Assembly: GCA_018698135.1 (NCBI GenBank)
Contig: JABINZ010000195.1
Span: 1 to 36,012 of the forward strand
Source: Bacteroidota bacterium
GTDB lineage: Bacteria; Bacteroidota; Bacteroidia; CAILMK01; JAAYUY01
Reading direction: 5' to 3'
DNA length: 36,012 nucleotides
Below the pieces are notes generated by a model, which worked only from the letters and a program-made list of their open reading frames with translations, did not search any database and was not told the origin of the DNA. A program made the translations under genes and the position numbers. Positions 6,437 through 20,897 of the stretch are shown here, piece after piece (position 1 is the first letter of the stretch; each line of letters begins with the position of its first letter).

Positions 6437-6781
6437 TCAGGCTTTGGAGTTTCCTGCAATGAATAAAGAAGCACCAATAAATGCAGCATAAGTGGTAATG
6501 GCCATTTTTGAACCTGCCAAATTCGGCAGATATAAAATCAGAATAAACACCAGAATAATAGATGCAAGGGCAAATCCAGCAATTCGTGCTTTATAATTAA
6601 TAGCCATGCTTATACCAGCTAAAATAAAAATTGCTCCGGTAGCATATACCCATATCTCAGGGAAAGGAATATAATCAGGAATGTAGGAGGCAGCTTTAGC
6701 TGTTTGACGAAAATGATTAATTCCGTAGGCGATAAAGGAAAGTGCGAATAGCACACGTCCGAAAAGGGATGTTATCTTCAT
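6437..6781 (-). CDS. DoxX-like small membrane protein
   Basis: This is a 114-residue protein with four predicted membrane helices and an N-terminal RVLFALSFIAYGINHF segment, resembling DoxX/DoxD-like membrane proteins of Bacteroidota. Family members have been linked to quinone or thiosulfate redox chemistry and to oxidative stress, but most, including this one, have no assigned function. It is convergent with the PLP enzyme (46 bp apart) and divergent from the methyltransferase gene. The ATG at 6781 is the natural start, because the first helix follows directly. Confidence 0.65.
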   Translation of the reverse strand: MKITSLFGRVLFALSFIAYGINHFRQTAKAASYIPDYIPFPEIWVYATGAIFILAGISMAINYKARIAGFALASIILVFILILYLPNLAGSKMAITTYAAFIGASLFIAGNSKA

Positions 6782-6966
6782 AACTTTGTTTTAATGCCAT
6801 AAATTGTTCAATAATGATGCAAACAATTAATAATTAATAGCTTAGAGCTTGCTTTCTGATGAAACAAAAGTGATTCTTTTAGCTTATTAACAATCACAGA
6901 ATAAGATGATAGAGGCAGGAATAAGCCTTTTCACGAACTTCGCAATGTTTTAGAAGCAAGCAAAAC

Positions 6967-8943
6967 ATGAGTAGCACATTTAGCATAAAAGAAACAGCAA
7001 GGCAACTTGGCATTACAACTACCACTGTACAAAATTGGGAAAAACAGGGTTATTTAAAGCCAATTAAGAAAAATAACACCCTGCTGTATCAAAAGCGGCA
7101 AGTATTGCATTTGAAAGAACAAATAGAAAATGGCGAAATTGGAAGATTGGGAAACAGAGCCAATAAAAAGAATTCAAATCGCACATTTGTTCCAGAAGAA
7201 TATACTGGAAATCCCGAGGACGTTCCTCTTATCGAGATTATTATCAATATTGTCAACAAAAACAAGCTTGAAGTTGCCGAGAGCATTTTTGTTTTATGTT
7301 TAAATAAGTTGGTTCAGGAAAAGATATTTGACAATTTACCCCTTCAGGAATTACTCAAGTTTTACAATAAAAACAGCCTACACGAAAACATCAGTCAAGA
7401 ACTTAATTTATGGCAGCTGGATTTAAATCTGGAATCTAAAATCGATAAATATCAACCGCTTTTAGATGTTCGGATTGCCTTAGATGGTGATTTCATTGGC
7501 AGTATATATCAATCTATTTTAACGGAAGGCCACAAATCAAAAGAAGGCTCCTATTATACACCATCAGAGCTATGCGAAAACATGGCAGGTGAGTATCTCA
7601 ATCAAATAAAAGGACAAGTGAAAATCTTGGACCCTTGCTGTGGAACCGGTCAATTTTTAATAGCAGCAGGGAAACAGATTAAAAAAATGGGTCGCTTAAT
7701 TAAACCTGAAAATATTTGGGGTTATGATATCGATCCCATTGCTGTGAAAATTGCTCGATTAAATTTAATGATATTATTCAGGGATTTTAATTTTAGTCCC
7801 AATATTTATACAAGAGACATTATTTATAATTATTCGCTTGACGATAAAATTCACAAAAACAGAAAATTTGATTTAATTATCAGCAATCCGCCATGGGGAG
7901 CAGAATTTCAGGTTGAGCAACTCAGTTTTTTAAAGGAAAATTATCCCTCCATTTTAACACTCGAATCATTCTCCTATTTTGTATTTATCGGTTTGAACTT
8001 GTTGAACCAGGGAGGTTTCTTGTCCTATATATTACCAGAATCCATTCTGAACATCAAATTTCATAAAGATATCAGGCAGTTTATTTTGCAGAATGCAAAA
8101 GCCATAAAAATCTTTAACTACAATCGGATTTTTAGCAATGTATTTACTCCGGTTATTCGATTGGATTTGCAAAAAATTCCTGAACATAATATCAGTTTGC
8201 CCATTATCACAAATGGAGATAGCTACACCATTAACTCGAGTCGTTTTCAGCGAAACAAGGATTTGGTTTTTGATATTTACAATACTAATGAAGATGCGCG
8301 CATAATTGAAAAAGTTTATTCATTAGAACACCAAACGCTTCAAAATCAGGCTGACTGGGTTTTAGGAATTGTAAGCGGAAACAATAAGGAATTTTTAGCT
8401 CAATCGCCAAAAAAAGGTTGGCAGGTTATTTTAAAAGGCACTGATATTCAGAAATTCCAAATAAAAAATGCTAAAAACTGGATTAGGTTCGATCGGGACA
8501 AGCTTCAGCAAGCAGCACCATTAATTCGCTATAAGGCTAAAGAAAAACTCATTTATAAATTTATTTCCAACAAATTGGTTTTTGCCTACGACAACAAACA
8601 GCGATTAAGCTTAAACAGCGCCAATATAGTGATCCCCAAAATACCTGACTACTCCATAAAAGCAATAATGGCTCTTTTTAACTCTACTTTATATCAATTC
8701 ATTTTCAAAAAGAAGTTTTTTGCGTTGAAAGTTCTTCGAAGTCATTTGGAGCAATTACCCTTGCCTTTATTCGAGACACAGACGCTTGAACGTTTGGAGA
8801 AATTTTCTGACCAACTCATGCTGGCATCTGCCGATGAGGAACTTTACGAAGAAAGATTTGCTGAGTTGGATGAGATGGTATTTAATTTGTTTGGATTAAC
8901 TAATGCTGAAATAAAAAGGATACAAACTGAAGTCACCAAATAG
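6967..8943 (+). CDS. MerR-type HTH fused to an N6-adenine DNA methyltransferase with a TaqI-like specificity region
   Basis: Residues ~4-52 form a MerR/excisionase-like winged helix (FSIKETARQLGITTTTVQNW). Residues ~85-160 are a helical linker. Residues ~175-400 are a class I SAM-dependent adenine methyltransferase: SYYTP (195-199), motif I LDPCCGTGQF (221-230) and catalytic NPPW (307-310). The C-terminal ~200 residues resemble TaqI/Eco57I-type target-recognition regions and end with a helical LDEMVFNLFGLT segment typical of type IIG enzymes. At 658 residues it is shorter than most type IIG restriction-methylases. I see no PD-(D/E)XK nuclease motif and no restriction gene beside it, so it looks like a solitary methylase. 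The HTH in place of an N-terminal nuclease is unusual and suggests targeting or regulation by DNA binding. The start at 6967 retains the whole HTH. Confidence 0.85.
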   Translation: MSSTFSIKETARQLGITTTTVQNWEKQGYLKPIKKNNTLLYQKRQVLHLKEQIENGEIGRLGNRANKKNSNRTFVPEEYTGNPEDVPLIEIIINIVNKNKLEVAESIFVLCLNKLVQEKIFDNLPLQELLKFYNKNSLHENISQELNLWQLDLNLESKIDKYQPLLDVRIALDGDFIGSIYQSILTEGHKSKEGSYYTPSELCENMAGEYLNQIKGQVKILDPCCGTGQFLIAAGKQIKKMGRLIKPENIWGYDIDPIAVKIARLNLMILFRDFNFSPNIYTRDIIYNYSLDDKIHKNRKFDLIISNPPWGAEFQVEQLSFLKENYPSILTLESFSYFVFIGLNLLNQGGFLSYILPESILNIKFHKDIRQFILQNAKAIKIFNYNRIFSNVFTPVIRLDLQKIPEHNISLPIITNGDSYTINSSRFQRNKDLVFDIYNTNEDARIIEKVYSLEHQTLQNQADWVLGIVSGNNKEFLAQSPKKGWQVILKGTDIQKFQIKNAKNWIRFDRDKLQQAAPLIRYKAKEKLIYKFISNKLVFAYDNKQRLSLNSANIVIPKIPDYSIKAIMALFNSTLYQFIFKKKFFALKVLRSHLEQLPLPLFETQTLERLEKFSDQLMLASADEELYEERFAELDEMVFNLFGLTNAEIKRIQTEVTK

Positions 8944-9007: not shown

Positions 9008-11113
9008 TTGTTAAGTACAGTTTACCCACATTGGTTCATTCTCATTTGCATTTTTACAGGTGCATCATTTGCCTTTTCACTCTATTTTGTAAATTATTTC
9101 CGCAAAGGGAAAGGCATATTTACTTTTCCTTCCTGGATCATGTTCGCCATTCGCTTTGTGGTTATCAGCTTGATCAGTTTTTTTTTACTATCTCCATTTT
9201 TGAAAAAGAACTTCAGGAAAGATGAAAAACCAATAATCATTTTAGCAGCTGATAATTCAGCTTCTATTTTACTTAATAAAGATTCTGTTTATTATTCCTC
9301 TGTTTTTGAAGAAGACTTAACCAAATTGCGAAATCAACTTAAAACTAAATATACCATTGTTGATTACACCTTTGGAAACAACGTAAATTCTGGAATTGAG
9401 CTTGATTTCACTGATAGCAGAACAAATATGTATGAAATACTGAATCATATTTATGAACAGAATTACAACAAAAACATAGGTGCCATCATAGTTGCTTCAG
9501 ACGGAAACTACAATGCAGGGAGAGACCCATTAGGATTAATCAACGACTTTAAAGCACCCTTTTATACAATTGCTTTAGGCGACACAAGTCCTTCAGCCGA
9601 TTTGTTAATCAGTAAAGTTCGGCATAATCAAATTGCCTATTTAGGAAATACTATCCCAATCAAAATTGGGGTAAATGCCGAAAAATTCAAAAACAAAAAA
9701 TTGGCATTAAGCTTATCCAATAATAATCAGGTGATTAAAAATTGGAATTTTGATATTAACCATCAGCATTTTTCACACACAATTGATTATTTATACGATG
9801 CAAATAAAAGTGGACTTCAGCATTTTACATTACAGATTAAAGAGCTTGATGGAGAAATAAGCTTTGCCAATAATTATGCGGATTTTTACATTGATGTGCT
9901 GGAAAGCAGAAAAAGCGTTGTTTTGCTGGCTAACTCTCCCCATCCAGACATAAACGCTTTAAGACGATCTATTGAAAAGAACGATAATTTTAAGCTTAAA
10001 ATTATTATTGCCTCTGAAATAAACAGAAATCCTCAATTATATCAAAATGAAATTCTAAATGCAGACTTGGTTATCCTACACCAGCTTCCTTCGGTATCTA
10101 ATCCACTGCAACAGTTATTTGCCAGCTTAGAAAAAAACAGTATCCCAATGCTTGTTATTTTAGGTAGTCAAACGGCTCTTCCCCAATTGAACAAATTGAA
10201 CTTAGGACTCACAATTCAATACCGAAATCAATCGTTCGAGGAAGTTTTTGCAGAACCAAATTCTGCGTTCAGCTATTTCAGTTTATCAACTAAAAACACA
10301 AGCATTATCAAAGATTTGCCACCTTTAATTGCTCCATTTGGACGTTACAGCATCAATCTTGAAAATGAAGTTCTTTTCAATCAAAAAATTGGTCAGGTTA
10401 TAAGTCCATACCCCCTTATTTTTTACGTTCAGGATATCGATAAACGACTGGGTTTCATATGTGGTGAAGGGATTTGGCGATGGCCTCTTGCCGAGTTTAG
10501 AATAAATCAAACACAAACATATTTTAATGACCTGATTCAAAAAAGCATTCAATTTATTTCGATTAAAGAGGATAAAAGATATTTTCATTTGAAGGATTTC
10601 AATGGTGATTATTTTGAAGATCAGGCTGTTCAAATGGAAGTTGAGCTTTACAATAAAAGCTACGAAAAGTTCCCTCATGCAAAAATTGAATTGGAAATAA
10701 TTCAAGATGGAATTAAATCGACTTTTCAATTCATAGAAACAGAAGAAGGCTATCGAGCTAATCTAGGGTATTTAAAGGCAGGAAAATATAGTTTTACAGC
10801 CTCTACCACAAGCGCAGGAAGTCTGCAAAAACTAACTGGAAGCTTTTTTGTCAAAAAAGTTGAAGTTGAATACATTAATACGACAGCCAACCATCAACTG
10901 ATGTATCATTTAGCTGAAGCACAAAATGGAAAAATGCTCTATCCTGATCAAATGGGTGATATAGAAAACTTGATTGAGAATCTAAATTTGAAAAGCCGAA
11001 GTAGTTTCGAAATGGAATCACGGGATTTAATTGAACTGAAATGGTTATTTTTTCTGATTATACTATTACTCGCAACAGAGTGGTTTTTCCGCAAGTTTTT
11101 TGGATCTTACTAA
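9008..11113 (+). CDS. Membrane-anchored von Willebrand factor A domain protein
   Basis: This 701-residue protein has two N-terminal membrane helices (~8-30 and ~42-64), a VWA domain beginning at ~75 with an intact DxSxS MIDAS motif (D82, S84, S86) and a later ASDGNYNAG loop, a long beta-rich region, and a C-terminal membrane helix (~680-697). The layout resembles BatA/BatB-like and related Bacteroidota VWA proteins that expose a metal-dependent adhesion domain. The partner is unknown, and no MoxR ATPase or other bat genes adjoin it. Translation appears to start at a TTG: an in-frame stop lies just upstream, and the first in-frame ATG (residue 45) would remove the first membrane helix. Confidence 0.75.
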   Translation: MLSTVYPHWFILICIFTGASFAFSLYFVNYFRKGKGIFTFPSWIMFAIRFVVISLISFFLLSPFLKKNFRKDEKPIIILAADNSASILLNKDSVYYSSVFEEDLTKLRNQLKTKYTIVDYTFGNNVNSGIELDFTDSRTNMYEILNHIYEQNYNKNIGAIIVASDGNYNAGRDPLGLINDFKAPFYTIALGDTSPSADLLISKVRHNQIAYLGNTIPIKIGVNAEKFKNKKLALSLSNNNQVIKNWNFDINHQHFSHTIDYLYDANKSGLQHFTLQIKELDGEISFANNYADFYIDVLESRKSVVLLANSPHPDINALRRSIEKNDNFKLKIIIASEINRNPQLYQNEILNADLVILHQLPSVSNPLQQLFASLEKNSIPMLVILGSQTALPQLNKLNLGLTIQYRNQSFEEVFAEPNSAFSYFSLSTKNTSIIKDLPPLIAPFGRYSINLENEVLFNQKIGQVISPYPLIFYVQDIDKRLGFICGEGIWRWPLAEFRINQTQTYFNDLIQKSIQFISIKEDKRYFHLKDFNGDYFEDQAVQMEVELYNKSYEKFPHAKIELEIIQDGIKSTFQFIETEEGYRANLGYLKAGKYSFTASTTSAGSLQKLTGSFFVKKVEVEYINTTANHQLMYHLAEAQNGKMLYPDQMGDIENLIENLNLKSRSSFEMESRDLIELKWLFFLIILLLATEWFFRKFFGSY

Positions 11114-15686: not shown

Positions 15687-15748
15687 TTGAAAATTAATAC
15701 GTCAGAGTCTCCCACCTATTTACATTTTTTCATATATTGCATTCTTTT

Positions 15749-15762
15749 TACTACTAGTAGTA
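15749..15762. repeat. 14-bp perfect palindrome upstream of the PorP-like gene
   Basis: TACTACTAGTAGTA is an exact inverted repeat lying 29 bp before the ATG at 15792. It could be an operator or part of a leader hairpin. No T run follows, so it is unlikely to be a terminator. Confidence 0.4.
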
Positions 15763-15791
15763 GAGGGTTTTCAACGTTTAATGCAATTAAT

Positions 15792-16778
15792 ATGAGGGTA
15801 AACAAATTACACTTCTCAGGATTAATGATGTTTTTCTTACTGTTTTTAAGCTCTTATCAGCTTAAAGCTCAGCAAGATCCACTGTATACCAATTTCATGT
15901 TTAACAAATTGGTTTACAATCCAGCTTTTGCTGGCACAAATCCTGAGTTTATTTGTGCAACGTTTCTGCTCCATAACCAGTGGAGTGGCTTTGGGAGCGA
16001 TGCAGACGAATATGTAGGCGCAGCTCCAACCACCAATACATTTAGCCTACATGCACCCATCCCAAACAGCAATACTTTTGGTGGCGTAGGTATGTATGTA
16101 TTAAACGATGTTGAAGGCTATAACCTAACAACAACGGCAAATATCGCCTTTTCATTAAAGCGCTATTTTAGTTTTGGAGCCGTTTATTTAGGCATTAATG
16201 CTGGAATAATCCAAAAAGGGATTAACAATACTTTCTGGAGAGCACCAGATCCTAACGATCCAACAATTCCTTCTGGACAACAAAGTGCCATTCGACCTGA
16301 TTTGGGTGCCGGCCTTTATGTATTTTCTCAAAATAAATTTTTTGCAGGAATTTCATCACAACACCTTATTCCCGGTACATTTAACTGGGGAGGCCCACAA
16401 TATGAAATTGTTCGCCAATCATATTTAACCGCTGGATATTCATTTGTCCTGCCATCAAATCCTTTTATTGAATTCCAACCTTCCGTTCTATATAAAATCG
16501 ATAAAGCAAGAAAACAATTTGACATTAACATGAATGTGATGTATAAAGATCGGTTTTGGGGAGGATTACAATATCGACAAGGAGATGCTGTTTCGGCACT
16601 TTTGGGGCTGAAATTGACATCTAATTTAAAATTTGGATACGCTTACGACTTAACAGTGACAGAGTTAAATAAATATAGCCAAGGTACGCATGAAGTGCTC
16701 ATAAGTTATTGTTTCAAAATTGTGATTAAACCACGTGTAATTATCCCGAATATTATCTGGACGCCCAGATACTTATAA
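15792..16778 (+). CDS. PorP/SprF-family type IX secretion outer-membrane protein
   Basis: This encodes about 328 residues with a signal peptide (MRVNKLHFSG to LKAQ) followed by the family opening QQDPLYTNFMFNKLVYNPAFAG and an outer-membrane beta-barrel. PorP/SprF proteins associate with the type IX secretion machine and with surface attachment of its substrates. I place the start at the ATG 15792. An upstream in-frame TTG at 15687 would add 35 residues before the signal peptide that do not fit. It lies directly upstream of gldK, the usual porP-gldKLMN order. With PorP/SprF paralogues common, I cannot say whether this is the core PorP. Confidence 0.87.
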   Translation: MRVNKLHFSGLMMFFLLFLSSYQLKAQQDPLYTNFMFNKLVYNPAFAGTNPEFICATFLLHNQWSGFGSDADEYVGAAPTTNTFSLHAPIPNSNTFGGVGMYVLNDVEGYNLTTTANIAFSLKRYFSFGAVYLGINAGIIQKGINNTFWRAPDPNDPTIPSGQQSAIRPDLGAGLYVFSQNKFFAGISSQHLIPGTFNWGGPQYEIVRQSYLTAGYSFVLPSNPFIEFQPSVLYKIDKARKQFDINMNVMYKDRFWGGLQYRQGDAVSALLGLKLTSNLKFGYAYDLTVTELNKYSQGTHEVLISYCFKIVIKPRVIIPNIIWTPRYL

Positions 16779-16873
16779 CAATAAAATTGTGGATAAGTCG
16801 TTATTTAAAAACAATAAAAAAAAGAAACAATAAACACCTGAAATAATAACTTTGAATTAATTGCGTTAATATT

Positions 16874-16904
16874 TTGGTTTAAATAATTTTTAATTTTAAT
16901 TTTG
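16874..16904 (+). promoter_or_regulatory. Promoter for gldKLMN
   Basis: TTG (16874-16876) is followed after 20 bp by TAATTTTG (16897-16904), a full match to the Bacteroidota TTG / TAnnTTTG pattern. Transcription would begin near 16911, about 17 nt before the gldK ATG. A second -7-like TAACTTTG lies at 16847-16854 without a matching upstream element. Confidence 0.6.
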
Positions 16905-16927
16905 CTCATTGATTAATTATCAACATC

Positions 16928-18241
16928 ATGAGAGTTTATAAAAACATCAGACTTCTAACTTTCGGAACTATCTGCTTAGGTCTATTCCTACAGAGCTGTG
17001 GCCTTAACAATACCAAAGGTCAACTCGTAGGGGTAAAAGGCAGAATGATCTGGAATCACCCTCAGCCATTCGGTACTGTCAACATTCCAACTGGAACTTA
17101 TCACATGGGCCAAAGTGATCAGGACATTATCTACGCGCTGACATCACGTCCCATGCAGGTTACCGTGCAATCCTTCTTTATGGATGACACGGAAATAACC
17201 AATAATGAGTATCGCCAGTTTGTACACTGGGTACGAGACTCAATGGCCAGAAAAATGCTTGGGGATGAATATGTACTTGAAAATGACAATGGTGATGAGT
17301 ACATTAATTGGAAAACCAAGCTCAGATACAGCGATCCTGAGGTAAAAGAGAATATTACCGAAATGTTCTACCAGGGAGATGATATTTTCGAAGGCGATAT
17401 TTACGAATTTGATATTCGTGGATTCAAATACGATTATCATTGGATGGATCTGCATGAAGCTTCTAAAAGAATCTATTATGAAGATACACGAAAAGGAAAT
17501 GCACCTAGCAGAAGTACTTTCCGCAGAGATGAGATGGTTCCGGTTTATCCTGACACTTTATGTTGGATTCGTGACTTTACCTATTCATTCAACGATCCTT
17601 TAACACAGCTTTATTTCTACCATCCAGGATATGATGACTATCCTGTAGTTGGTGTAAGCTGGAAACAAGCAAAAGCATTTGCTCATTGGAGAACCAAATA
17701 TCTGAATGATTATTACAAATCAATAGGCATGCCCAAAGTCAATGAATTCAGACTACCAACAGAAGCAGAATGGGAATATGCAGCTCGTGGTGGCAGAGAC
17801 TTTAACCCATATCCATGGGGAGGACCTTATTTAAGAAACAGTAAAGGTTGTTTCTTGGCTAACTTCAAACCTCTGCGTGGAAATTATAGTGAAGATGGTG
17901 GCTACTACCCCGTAAAAGTTACTTCTTACTTCCCAAATGATTATGGCTTGTATTGTATGGCTGGTAATGTATCGGAATGGACTGATAATGCGTATAATGA
18001 AGGAATAAATGCAGTTATCGATGATATGAACCCATTCTACTATTACGATGCTTCTGAGGATGATAATGGAAGTATGAAAAGGAAATCCATTCGTGGCGGC
18101 TCTTACAAAGATGTAGGATATTGGTTACAAAACGGAACTCGTACTTTCGAATATCAGGATACAGCAAAAGCATATGTAGGTTTCCGTTGTGTAATGACTT
18201 ATATGGGTCGTTCCATCAAGGACAAAAACTCGAATTATTAA
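16928..18241 (+). CDS. gldK: Type IX secretion ring lipoprotein GldK/PorK
   Basis: This 437-residue lipoprotein has lipobox LQSC with lipidated Cys24, followed by an FGE/sulfatase-modifying-factor-like domain (IPTGTYHMGQSD near the start, RLPTEAEWEYAARGG, and the late GNVSEW, IRGGSY and VGFRCV motifs). GldK and GldN form the periplasmic ring of the type IX secretion system on the outer membrane. The enzyme-like fold is used structurally here, with no known catalytic role. It is first in the gldKLMN unit, has its own promoter-like element, and lies 39 bp before gldL. Confidence 0.93.
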   Translation: MRVYKNIRLLTFGTICLGLFLQSCGLNNTKGQLVGVKGRMIWNHPQPFGTVNIPTGTYHMGQSDQDIIYALTSRPMQVTVQSFFMDDTEITNNEYRQFVHWVRDSMARKMLGDEYVLENDNGDEYINWKTKLRYSDPEVKENITEMFYQGDDIFEGDIYEFDIRGFKYDYHWMDLHEASKRIYYEDTRKGNAPSRSTFRRDEMVPVYPDTLCWIRDFTYSFNDPLTQLYFYHPGYDDYPVVGVSWKQAKAFAHWRTKYLNDYYKSIGMPKVNEFRLPTEAEWEYAARGGRDFNPYPWGGPYLRNSKGCFLANFKPLRGNYSEDGGYYPVKVTSYFPNDYGLYCMAGNVSEWTDNAYNEGINAVIDDMNPFYYYDASEDDNGSMKRKSIRGGSYKDVGYWLQNGTRTFEYQDTAKAYVGFRCVMTYMGRSIKDKNSNY

Positions 18242-18280
18242 TTAATCAATAAATATCTAACTAAATCAAATTAATTAAAC

Positions 18281-19261
18281 ATGGCAAAGGCGAAAAAAGC
18301 AAAGAAGGAAAAATCAGGCAATTTTTTTGAAAGTAAAGCTTTCAAATCTTTCATGGCCAAATTATACGGATGGGGAGCTTCCATTGTTATCCTCGGTGCA
18401 CTCTTTAAAATTATGCACTGGAAAGGAGCTGGAATTATGCTTACCCTTGGTCTGTCAACAGAGGCATTAATTTTCTTTATATCTGCATTTGATACACAAA
18501 AAGAATTTGACTGGGCTAAAGTATATCCAGAATTAGCTGTTGAAGATGTTGAAGGAGAAGAAAGAGTCAAGAAAAGTGTTTCAGCAGAAATTGACAAAAT
18601 GTTGGAAGATGCAAAAATCGAATCACACATGGTGAATCGTTTAGGTGAAGGAATGAATAAATTTTCAAACACACTGGATGGTCTTAAAGAGGTAAGCAAT
18701 GCAAATCTTGCAACATCTGCTTATACAGAAAAAGTAAATGCAGCATCTGAGAATTTAGCAAAAGCCAATGAATCTTACGGTAAAGCTGCCGAAGCTATGT
18801 CTACTTTATCTGAAGCTTCAGGTTCTGGTAAGGAGTATTTCGATCAACTCCAAACAGCTTCAACAAATCTTTCTTCATTGAATGTAATGTATGAGAAAGA
18901 AATTGAAGAAACTAATAAGCACATTAAAGGTTTAGGTGAATTTAATGAAAACTTCACCACTGCAATGTCTCAATTAGGAAGTGCTACACAAAATACACAA
19001 GGATATTTTGATGAAATAAGCAAAGCAACACAGCATTTAACATCATTGAATTCAATGTATGAAGTTGAATTAAATGAGCAGTCTAAACATAAAGAAGCTC
19101 TTAACCAATATCAGGAGAAATTAGGTGACGTTTTAGGTAACCTTTCTGATGCAGGAGCATTGTCAGTTCAGTTGAATGAAGGATTTTCTAAACTAAATGA
19201 GAATCTATCATCGTTGAATAATATTTATGGCAATATGCTCAGCGCAATGTCCATGAAATAG
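18281..19261 (+). CDS. gldL: Type IX secretion motor protein GldL/PorL with repeated coiled-coil tail
   Basis: This 326-residue inner-membrane protein has two membrane helices (~28-45 and ~50-70). The glutamate E61 in helix 2 is probably the conserved proton-path glutamate of GldL. With GldM it forms the proton-driven motor that powers secretion. The cytoplasmic tail is long and helical and contains repeats. The motif S-L-N-x-(M/I)-Y occurs at 199-204, 255-260 and 311-316, exactly 56 residues apart, with a degenerate tyrosine at 148. YFD sequences at 186 and 242 keep the same phase. The protein is longer than the ~215-residue Flavobacterium johnsoniae form. gldM follows 46 bp later. Confidence 0.93.
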   Translation: MAKAKKAKKEKSGNFFESKAFKSFMAKLYGWGASIVILGALFKIMHWKGAGIMLTLGLSTEALIFFISAFDTQKEFDWAKVYPELAVEDVEGEERVKKSVSAEIDKMLEDAKIESHMVNRLGEGMNKFSNTLDGLKEVSNANLATSAYTEKVNAASENLAKANESYGKAAEAMSTLSEASGSGKEYFDQLQTASTNLSSLNVMYEKEIEETNKHIKGLGEFNENFTTAMSQLGSATQNTQGYFDEISKATQHLTSLNSMYEVELNEQSKHKEALNQYQEKLGDVLGNLSDAGALSVQLNEGFSKLNENLSSLNNIYGNMLSAMSMK

Positions 19262-19307
19262 TGGAAATTGATTATTTCTTTATGTTAACTTTTAAATTTA
19301 TAAAAGA

Positions 19308-20897
19308 ATGTCTGTAGGAAAAACAAACCCGATGCGCCAGATGATGATCAATATGATGTATCTGGTGTTGACGGCTCTACTTGCACTGAATGTATCTGCT
19401 GAGATTCTCAAAGCTTTCCAGACTGTGAATGATGGTATGACCAAATCAATTGAATTGATTGATCAGAAAAAAGGTCAAACCATGGAACAGTTTGCAAATC
19501 TCATGAGTAAATCCGCAACCGCTGCTTCAGCAGAAGATTTCAATAGAAGAGCAAACAATGTAAATAAAATATGTGACGATCTTTATGATCATGTTGAAAA
19601 TTTAAGAAAACGCGTTATTTGGGAAAGTGGTGGACAGGATCCGGAAGAGGATACTGAAATTACCACTGATAGTCTCATGAGGGACATGAAAAATCTTGAA
19701 GTAGCTCCACGCCTTTTCATCAACCTTGGATTAGGAGATCTCTTGGAAGAAAAGATTGGAGAGTCTCGCGATGATCTGCTTGTTCAAATTAAAGACGTCA
19801 AAGAAATTGATTACAATAACTTTTTACCAAACGTTACTTTAAAAGTAGATGAGCCAAAAAAGGCAAATACTACTTGGGCAGAAGAAAGCTTCCACATGGT
19901 TCCTGCCATTGCTGCTGTTACATTACTAACTAAAATACAGCAGGATATCAGAACAACTCAAGCAAACATTATTGATGCTTTGCTTAATTCAATTGGAAGA
20001 GATGACTATAAATTTGACAAGCTCATTCCTGTAGTAAATGTAACAACCGGAAAAAGTGCTGTTGCTGTTGGTGAACAATATACTGCTGAAATTTTATTAG
20101 CAGCATATGATTCAAAACAACAACCACAAATTTTTATTGGTGGTAAAGAATATGAAGTAATTGATGGTAAAGCAACTTTCGAAGGAGCTACCAATCAGCA
20201 AATGTCTTTCGATCAGGAAGGTGAAATAGTTGTTGCTAAAAAAGGTACTGATGAAGTTACAAGATATCCGTTTCGTTTAGCATATGATGTGTTTAACGCA
20301 CCCGCTATTATTTCTGCAACCAAAATGAACGTACTTTATATTGGACTAGAAAATCCGATGGAGATTTCCGTACCTGGTTATCGCCCACAAGATATCAGAG
20401 CCAATATTGCTGGCGGTTCATTAACTTCAGGAAAGCCTGGCCAGTACATGGCTAAGGTAAATGATAGTAAGGGTAAAATCCGTGAAGCAAAAATCAGTGT
20501 TTCTGTAAAGCAACCTGATGGATCTTATAAGGGAGTAGGTGCACCCTCTGTATTTCGTATAAAAAGAGTACCAAACCCAACCCCTTATTTTGGATCAAAA
20601 GCTGGTGGCGAAATCAGTGCAGGTGAAATTCGTATTGTCAATTTCATTTCTGTTCGATTAGAAAACTTCCCATTTGACCTGAAGTATAAAGTTACTAAGT
20701 TCAAATTTGTATATCAACCAAAGAAAGGACAAGCCATTTTCTATCCTGGAAATGGACCAAACATTACTAGTGCTATGAAAAGTGCTATGGGAAGTCCTCA
20801 GAGAGGAGATATTATTATCATCTCTAATATTTACGCAACTGCTCCAGGTGTGCCTAATAAGCAATTACCAGGTGCTATTGTATTAACTGTAAAATAA
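19308..20897 (+). CDS. gldM: Type IX secretion motor protein GldM/PorM
   Basis: This 529-residue protein has a short cytoplasmic start, one membrane helix (~10-32, MINMMYLVLTALLALNVS) and a large periplasmic region of helical and then beta-sandwich domains, as in GldM/PorM. It forms a dimeric periplasmic shaft that couples the GldL motor to the GldK-GldN ring. The first residues (SVGKTNPMRQMMINMMYLVLTALLALNVSAEIL) are the conserved family start; only a short part is quoted as motif. The length is normal. It lies between gldL and gldN with 7 bp to gldN, indicating co-transcription. Confidence 0.95.
   Translation: MSVGKTNPMRQMMINMMYLVLTALLALNVSAEILKAFQTVNDGMTKSIELIDQKKGQTMEQFANLMSKSATAASAEDFNRRANNVNKICDDLYDHVENLRKRVIWESGGQDPEEDTEITTDSLMRDMKNLEVAPRLFINLGLGDLLEEKIGESRDDLLVQIKDVKEIDYNNFLPNVTLKVDEPKKANTTWAEESFHMVPAIAAVTLLTKIQQDIRTTQANIIDALLNSIGRDDYKFDKLIPVVNVTTGKSAVAVGEQYTAEILLAAYDSKQQPQIFIGGKEYEVIDGKATFEGATNQQMSFDQEGEIVVAKKGTDEVTRYPFRLAYDVFNAPAIISATKMNVLYIGLENPMEISVPGYRPQDIRANIAGGSLTSGKPGQYMAKVNDSKGKIREAKISVSVKQPDGSYKGVGAPSVFRIKRVPNPTPYFGSKAGGEISAGEIRIVNFISVRLENFPFDLKYKVTKFKFVYQPKKGQAIFYPGNGPNITSAMKSAMGSPQRGDIIIISNIYATAPGVPNKQLPGAIVLTVK

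Follow-up and report, generated by a model that had tools for sequence, protein, structure and literature searches.

The methylase gene and its domains

The window, the whole stretch of DNA that was analysed, is an entire contig (C195; 36,012 bases) of a draft Bacteroidota-type genome (G000; 4.2 Mb, 287 contigs, 96.95% complete). On its forward strand, an open reading frame (ORF) at 6967-8943 that opens with ATG encodes an intact protein of 658 amino acids. The gene, its parts and the flanking features are as follows:

6967..8943, forward strand: gene for a helix-turn-helix (HTH)-N6-adenine DNA methyltransferase, 658 aa
6979..7116, forward strand: MerR-type winged HTH, residues 5-50 (Pfam, PADLOC, AlphaFold2 model)
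7132..7476, forward strand: all-helical segment, residues 56-170, resembling the N-terminal helical domain of HsdM-type subunits (alignment, model, fold comparison)
7486..8175, forward strand: N6-adenine methyltransferase core, residues 174-403 (Pfam)
7630..7656, forward strand: motif I, DPCCGTGQF, residues 222-230 (sequence, alignment)
7885..7896, forward strand: motif IV, NPPW, residues 307-310 (sequence, alignment)
8425..8763, forward strand: TaqI-like C-terminal specificity domain, residues 487-599 (Pfam)
6884..6923, no strand: candidate upstream block (conservation with the congener G001)
6437..6781, reverse strand: DoxX-family gene, conserved left neighbour, a place marker outside the system (Pfam, synteny)
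9008..11113, forward strand: large putative membrane protein, conserved right neighbour, a place marker (synteny)

Pfam matched MerR_1 at residues 5-50 (29.6 bits, above the gathering score of 21.6), N6_Mtase at 174-403 (4.8e-23), Eco57I at 248-387 (1.2e-21) and TaqI_C at 487-599 (4e-24), which bears out the sequence-only reading of an adenine methylase that carries a MerR-type HTH and a TaqI-like region. Motif I, motif IV and the C-terminal TRD (TaqI_C) follow one another in the gamma order of TaqI/Eco57I-like enzymes, and the majority of letters in both motifs were invariant across seven homologues. We take motif I to bind SAM and motif IV to serve catalysis, as in the family. An N-terminal HTH and a methylase thus share one polypeptide, as in regulatory (HTH-fused) methyltransferases. 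Among the window proteins scanned, which were part of the ORFs (20 proteins by Pfam and 16 by PADLOC), no restriction endonuclease (REase) was found near the methylase, and neither these scans nor the predicted structure revealed a nuclease motif in the protein itself, in agreement with what had been read from the letters.

Predicted structure

The AlphaFold2 model of the 658-aa methylase, built from five input sequences, had a mean pLDDT of 68 and a pTM of 0.58. It contained a predicted winged HTH at residues ~4-54 (H7-14, H18-26, E32-35, E38-42, H43-54), followed at residues ~59-166 by helices only and then by the methylase core; the specificity domain was poorly predicted in parts (pLDDT <50 at residues 515-555). 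When aligned with VIA-align, model residues 81-440 overlaid on the HsdM-type subunit 7vs4_B (Z 26.6, rmsd 4.0, 348 aligned) and residues 86-439 on 2okc_A, also HsdM-type (Z 26.1, rmsd 5.0, 333 aligned). Because the model is all-helical here and overlays on HsdM-type subunits, residues ~59-166 are, as modelled, the helical domain of a methylase rather than a nuclease. This segment was largely missing from the aligned sequence of the REase-paired relative in genome G523. The top Foldseek matches of the model were CamA (7lni_A, E 5.5e-18), BrxX, M.BseCI and M.TaqI.

A nuclease in residues 60-170 was ruled out by Pfam and the predicted fold: a PD-(D/E)XK fold there, which the sequence-only reading had named as evidence against itself, appeared in neither. 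A type IIG restriction enzyme was likewise rejected, with no nuclease domain in the chain and residues 56-170 helical, HsdM-like and free of nuclease family matches.

Chromosomal place and selection

The methylase is the sole gene between the DoxX gene and the gene at 9008. It sits among 14 window genes with their order kept in the congener G001, and among 10 in G003, a member of a second genus. In G002, a fourth member of the family, only ~230 bases (L071 8698-8929) separate the DoxX gene from the homologue of the 9008 gene, with no methylase between them, and this provides a natural empty site. The ~44% identical copy of G002 lies on a separate contig, next to a gene whose sequence suggests an M48-type peptidase; that contig ends ~260 bases upstream of the methylase, leaving that side unseen. 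Since the 9008 gene tree left the order of G002, G003 and the pair G000+G001 unsettled, the trees do not separate a gain by a common ancestor from a loss in G002. A copy was present in all four sampled family members, and the best matches in the eight remaining genomes of the order were generic methylases (E 7e-10 or weaker).

Some further features lie around these loci. An AAA_14/DUF4143 ATPase is encoded on the reverse strand ~1.7 kb away from the methylase copy of G002 (L021 1871-3169; PADLOC candidate PDC-S01, 292 bits), and upstream of the same methylase, tandem repeats of ~26 bases reach the contig end (L006 3400-3689, reverse strand). In the window, a Type IX secretion/gliding cluster at 15687-20897 (PorP/SprF, an FGE-sulfatase-domain protein, GldL and GldM) shares one conserved block with the methylase.

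Comparison of the whole methylase between the window and G001 gave a pN of 0.142, a saturated pS of 0.81 and a pN/pS of 0.175; because dS was saturated in most comparisons, pN/pS alone is reported. By part, pN/pS was 0.133 for the HTH, 0.102 for the core, 0.126 for the TRD and 0.422 for the tail, while the comparison genes RadA, LOG and the 9008 gene gave 0.146, 0.185 and 0.245, respectively. The ORF is more than chance, its frame being kept at 78% identity in the congener at this pN/pS, and the methylase is under purifying selection at its fixed place. Between the window and G003, the HTH was 36% identical and the core 69%; the HTH may diverge faster over this longer distance, as would be expected if it tracks its own operator.

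Upstream of the gene, the block at 6884-6923 is conserved in G001 at 33 of its 40 positions (the best of 60 shuffled pairs reached 26), and a dyad, CTTATT-N11-AATAAG at 6883-6905, overlaps it; AT-rich dyads are common. The block was not kept in G003, and conservation of this kind is not unique to the methylase gene, as a comparable block (35/40) lies upstream of LOG. From sequence conservation, we consider it a candidate promoter or operator.

Relatives and their pairing with an endonuclease

We found the HTH-methylase architecture at 12 distinct loci. Identities to the window protein were 78% in G001, 57% in G003, ~44% in G002, 44% in G494, 35% on an Acetobacter plasmid, 33% in G523 and 29% in G950, and the 78% identical copy lies in the metagenome-assembled genome Bacteroidetes bacterium BS150m-G14. 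The phage-contig members are L033 and L034 (identical in sequence), L035, L036 and L051. In four of the 12 loci (three of 11 without L051, a locus that came in by way of its REase, through a scan for that protein family), the HTH-methylase directly adjoins a gene for a PD-(D/E)XK-type endonuclease, and these endonucleases belong to a single family. The arrangement varies: methylase then endonuclease on one strand in G523, endonuclease then methylase on the L033/L034 phage contigs, and convergent genes in L036 and L051. A profile built from three small proteins encoded next door, searched against 49 sequences, matched at E<0.5 only the neighbours in G523, L033/L034 and L036; two further matches (E 0.58 and 0.94) were chance-like. 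The gene is solitary in the window, G001 and G003. Constant pairing of homologues with a restriction subunit, a further finding that had been named as counter-evidence, thus holds for part of the family and fails for the window gene and its closest relatives.

The HTH is a feature of the whole family, and its presence alone points neither to a new system nor to a special orphan. The earlier likening to type IIG enzymes, with the place of the nuclease taken by a DNA-binding domain, has to be dropped: the HTH is shared by a whole family of stand-alone type II methylases, and the endonuclease of several relatives is a separate, adjoining PD-(D/E)XK-type gene.

Searches of larger collections returned few relatives. 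At a query coverage of at least 80%, 72,556 plasmids contained one (Acetobacter pasteurianus, 35%) and 50,697 phage records none. A first scan of viral contigs with profile A1 detected no relative; the wider profile A2 yielded 15 loci, four being family HTH-methylases (L033, L034, L035, L036) and 11 other methylases. Matches at E<=1e-40 occurred in 4 of 395 class genomes and 3 of 395 phylum genomes, while with the limit at E<=1e-60 one sample had matches in 3 of 341 genomes and another in 2 of 245; the samples overlap between groups, and the window's own genome is counted where listed. The branching order of the methylase tree is unsettled at deep nodes, and an order of "paired first, orphan later" is therefore one that we infer.

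In G494, a 123-aa Dam-family fragment and a HARE-HTH protein with a weak type II REase match (29 bits) lie close to the HTH-methylase (L028 6610-7757, reverse strand) and are perhaps a second, broken R-M unit. The stretch at L028 6987-7757 was rejected as the partner of the G494 methylase, its REase match being weak (PDLC03534, 29 bits) and its position ~1.2 kb off, not adjacent.

The partner endonuclease family

The PADLOC type II endonuclease model PDLC03414 (REase_II) matched the partner in G523 with 386 bits and the phage partners with 26-39 bits. NCBIfam gave no match for the paired endonucleases of G523 and phage L034, and Pfam no above-threshold match for that of G523. The L034 endonuclease model, built from nine rows (mean pLDDT 87.4, pTM 0.83), had the NhoI endonuclease as its nearest solved fold (Z 11.2, rmsd 3.1-3.2, 122 aligned), followed by Eco15I (Z 10.6, rmsd 8.1, 136 aligned) and, lower, I-Ssp6803I (Z 8.5) and PvuII (Z 6.4). 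Residues D54, E65 and K67 were invariant in the nine-row alignment (A6), which comprised the loci from the REase-family scan together with L034 and L036 and left out same or partial copies (L033, L050, L057, L059, L060, L061). In our reading, this pattern fits a PD-(D/E)XK site.

With profile A3, the partner family was found in one of seven genomes, G523 alone, which served as the positive control, and was absent from G000, G001, G002 and G003. A search of G000 with PDLC03414 gave no match, and no positive control matched in that search. By its neighbourhood, as far as the scanned proteins go, the window methylase is an orphan; in the draft genome as a whole, the absence covers the partner endonuclease family.

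The endonuclease family also occurs without an adjoining methylase of the HTH family, on phage contigs and a Bacillus licheniformis plasmid that bears phage genes (L052, L053, L055, L058, L062).

Comparison with known systems

The PADLOC model PDLC03348 ('MTase_II', 727 positions) aligned with the HTH region (residues 5-96 on positions 11-103) and with the methylase through to the C terminus (residues 171-656 on 198-712), and PDLC03356 matched two other HTH-methylases, those of G523 and phage L035, almost end to end. Both are sequence-built models, and some of their members have an REase, whereas the window copy has none. Because PDLC03348 combines HTH and methylase, the architecture is already in type II collections, and an HTH and a type II methylase in one chain are a kind of enzyme already known. 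Our literature search found no paper that describes an adenine methylase with a MerR-type HTH.

The core and TaqI-like specificity domain resemble those of M.TaqI and M.BseCI, which to our knowledge are R-M enzymes without the MerR-type HTH of the window protein. In the scheme given in section 10 of a review (PMC12707154), HTH-fused regulatory methyltransferases repress their own promoter, and M.SsoII, a cytosine-C5 methylase (PMC3978073), is an example. The window protein resembles the M.SsoII type in having an HTH ahead of a type II methylase; it differs in that a MerR-type HTH sits on an N6-adenine enzyme, with no REase promoter to share. CamA of Clostridioides difficile, described in PMC8187626 as an orphan N6-adenine methylase with host functions, shares with it the fold of catalytic core and TRD, the orphan state as judged by neighbourhood, and retention in a lineage. 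Identity is, however, ~18-20%, and the window protein adds the HTH and the helical domain.

Interpretation

Taken together, the window gene probably encodes an orphan type II N6-adenine methylase, retained in its lineage, that comes from an R-M family with a built-in HTH autoregulator; its catalysis, target site, autoregulation and host role are what we infer. It would descend from R-M methylases with an N-terminal MerR-type HTH, adjoined in several loci by a PD-(D/E)XK-type endonuclease, and in the family of the window genome it would have been kept alone between the DoxX and membrane-protein genes. The TaqI-like domain would recognise a short site at which the core methylates adenine, while the HTH, by analogy with M.SsoII-type regulatory methylases, may bind an operator in the promoter of its own gene, limiting the methylase level. 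The precedents that we read for such autoregulation come from outside the window protein's family, and M.SsoII acts on cytosine-C5, so the analogy calls for caution. The resulting genome-wide mark may be retained for host use, either epigenetic or as a shield against incoming cognate R-M systems. Read in this way, the gene would tie what looks like an orphan adenine methylase with a fused HTH to a family of type II R-M systems in bacteria and phages.

The conserved place and the purifying selection on HTH and core would also suit a dedicated epigenetic regulator, in which the HTH directs the methylase to selected promoters, or a genome-wide mark sets a gene programme as in CamA, the best Foldseek match and itself an orphan N6-adenine methylase. 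We regard this as unlikely: the match reflects a shared methylase fold (18% identity), the term "helix-turn-helix" is absent from the text of the CamA paper (PMC8187626), and the HTH, being present in REase-paired relatives too, does not single out an epigenetic function. A relic that outlived its endonuclease, weakly retained or useful solely as protection from the cognate R-M system, would account for the pairing in some loci and for the empty place in G002, but the intact frame, the pN/pS against G001 like that of housekeeping neighbours and retention down to 57% identity in G003 make it improbable. It is very improbable that the gene supplies the methylating component of a defence system, for example MADS or BREX, with its effector encoded elsewhere. 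The HTH does match PADLOC mad1 (1e-12), which we take to be a MADS component, and the core matches mad2 (8.8e-22); the NCBIfam MAD2 score, however, was 58.6 bits where the cut-off requires 720, and the PglX score was 54 where BREX-1 requires 500, lower for other PglX models, and no other MADS or BREX gene was present among the window proteins scanned. Among the three options offered by the sequence-only reading, the self-regulated orphan methylase is the best supported, and nothing was found in these scans in support of a defence system with a distant effector.

Starting from the preferred orphan methylase, a bolder extension, which we hold to be doubtful, is a fixed epigenetic switch of this Bacteroidota lineage: the HTH would guide the methylase to its own promoter and to others, the mark would alter HTH binding, and this feedback would have replaced the restriction partner. 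The natural series of paired genes, solitary genes at a fixed place and an empty place suits testing both how a methylase is retained without its endonuclease and what use is made of its built-in HTH.
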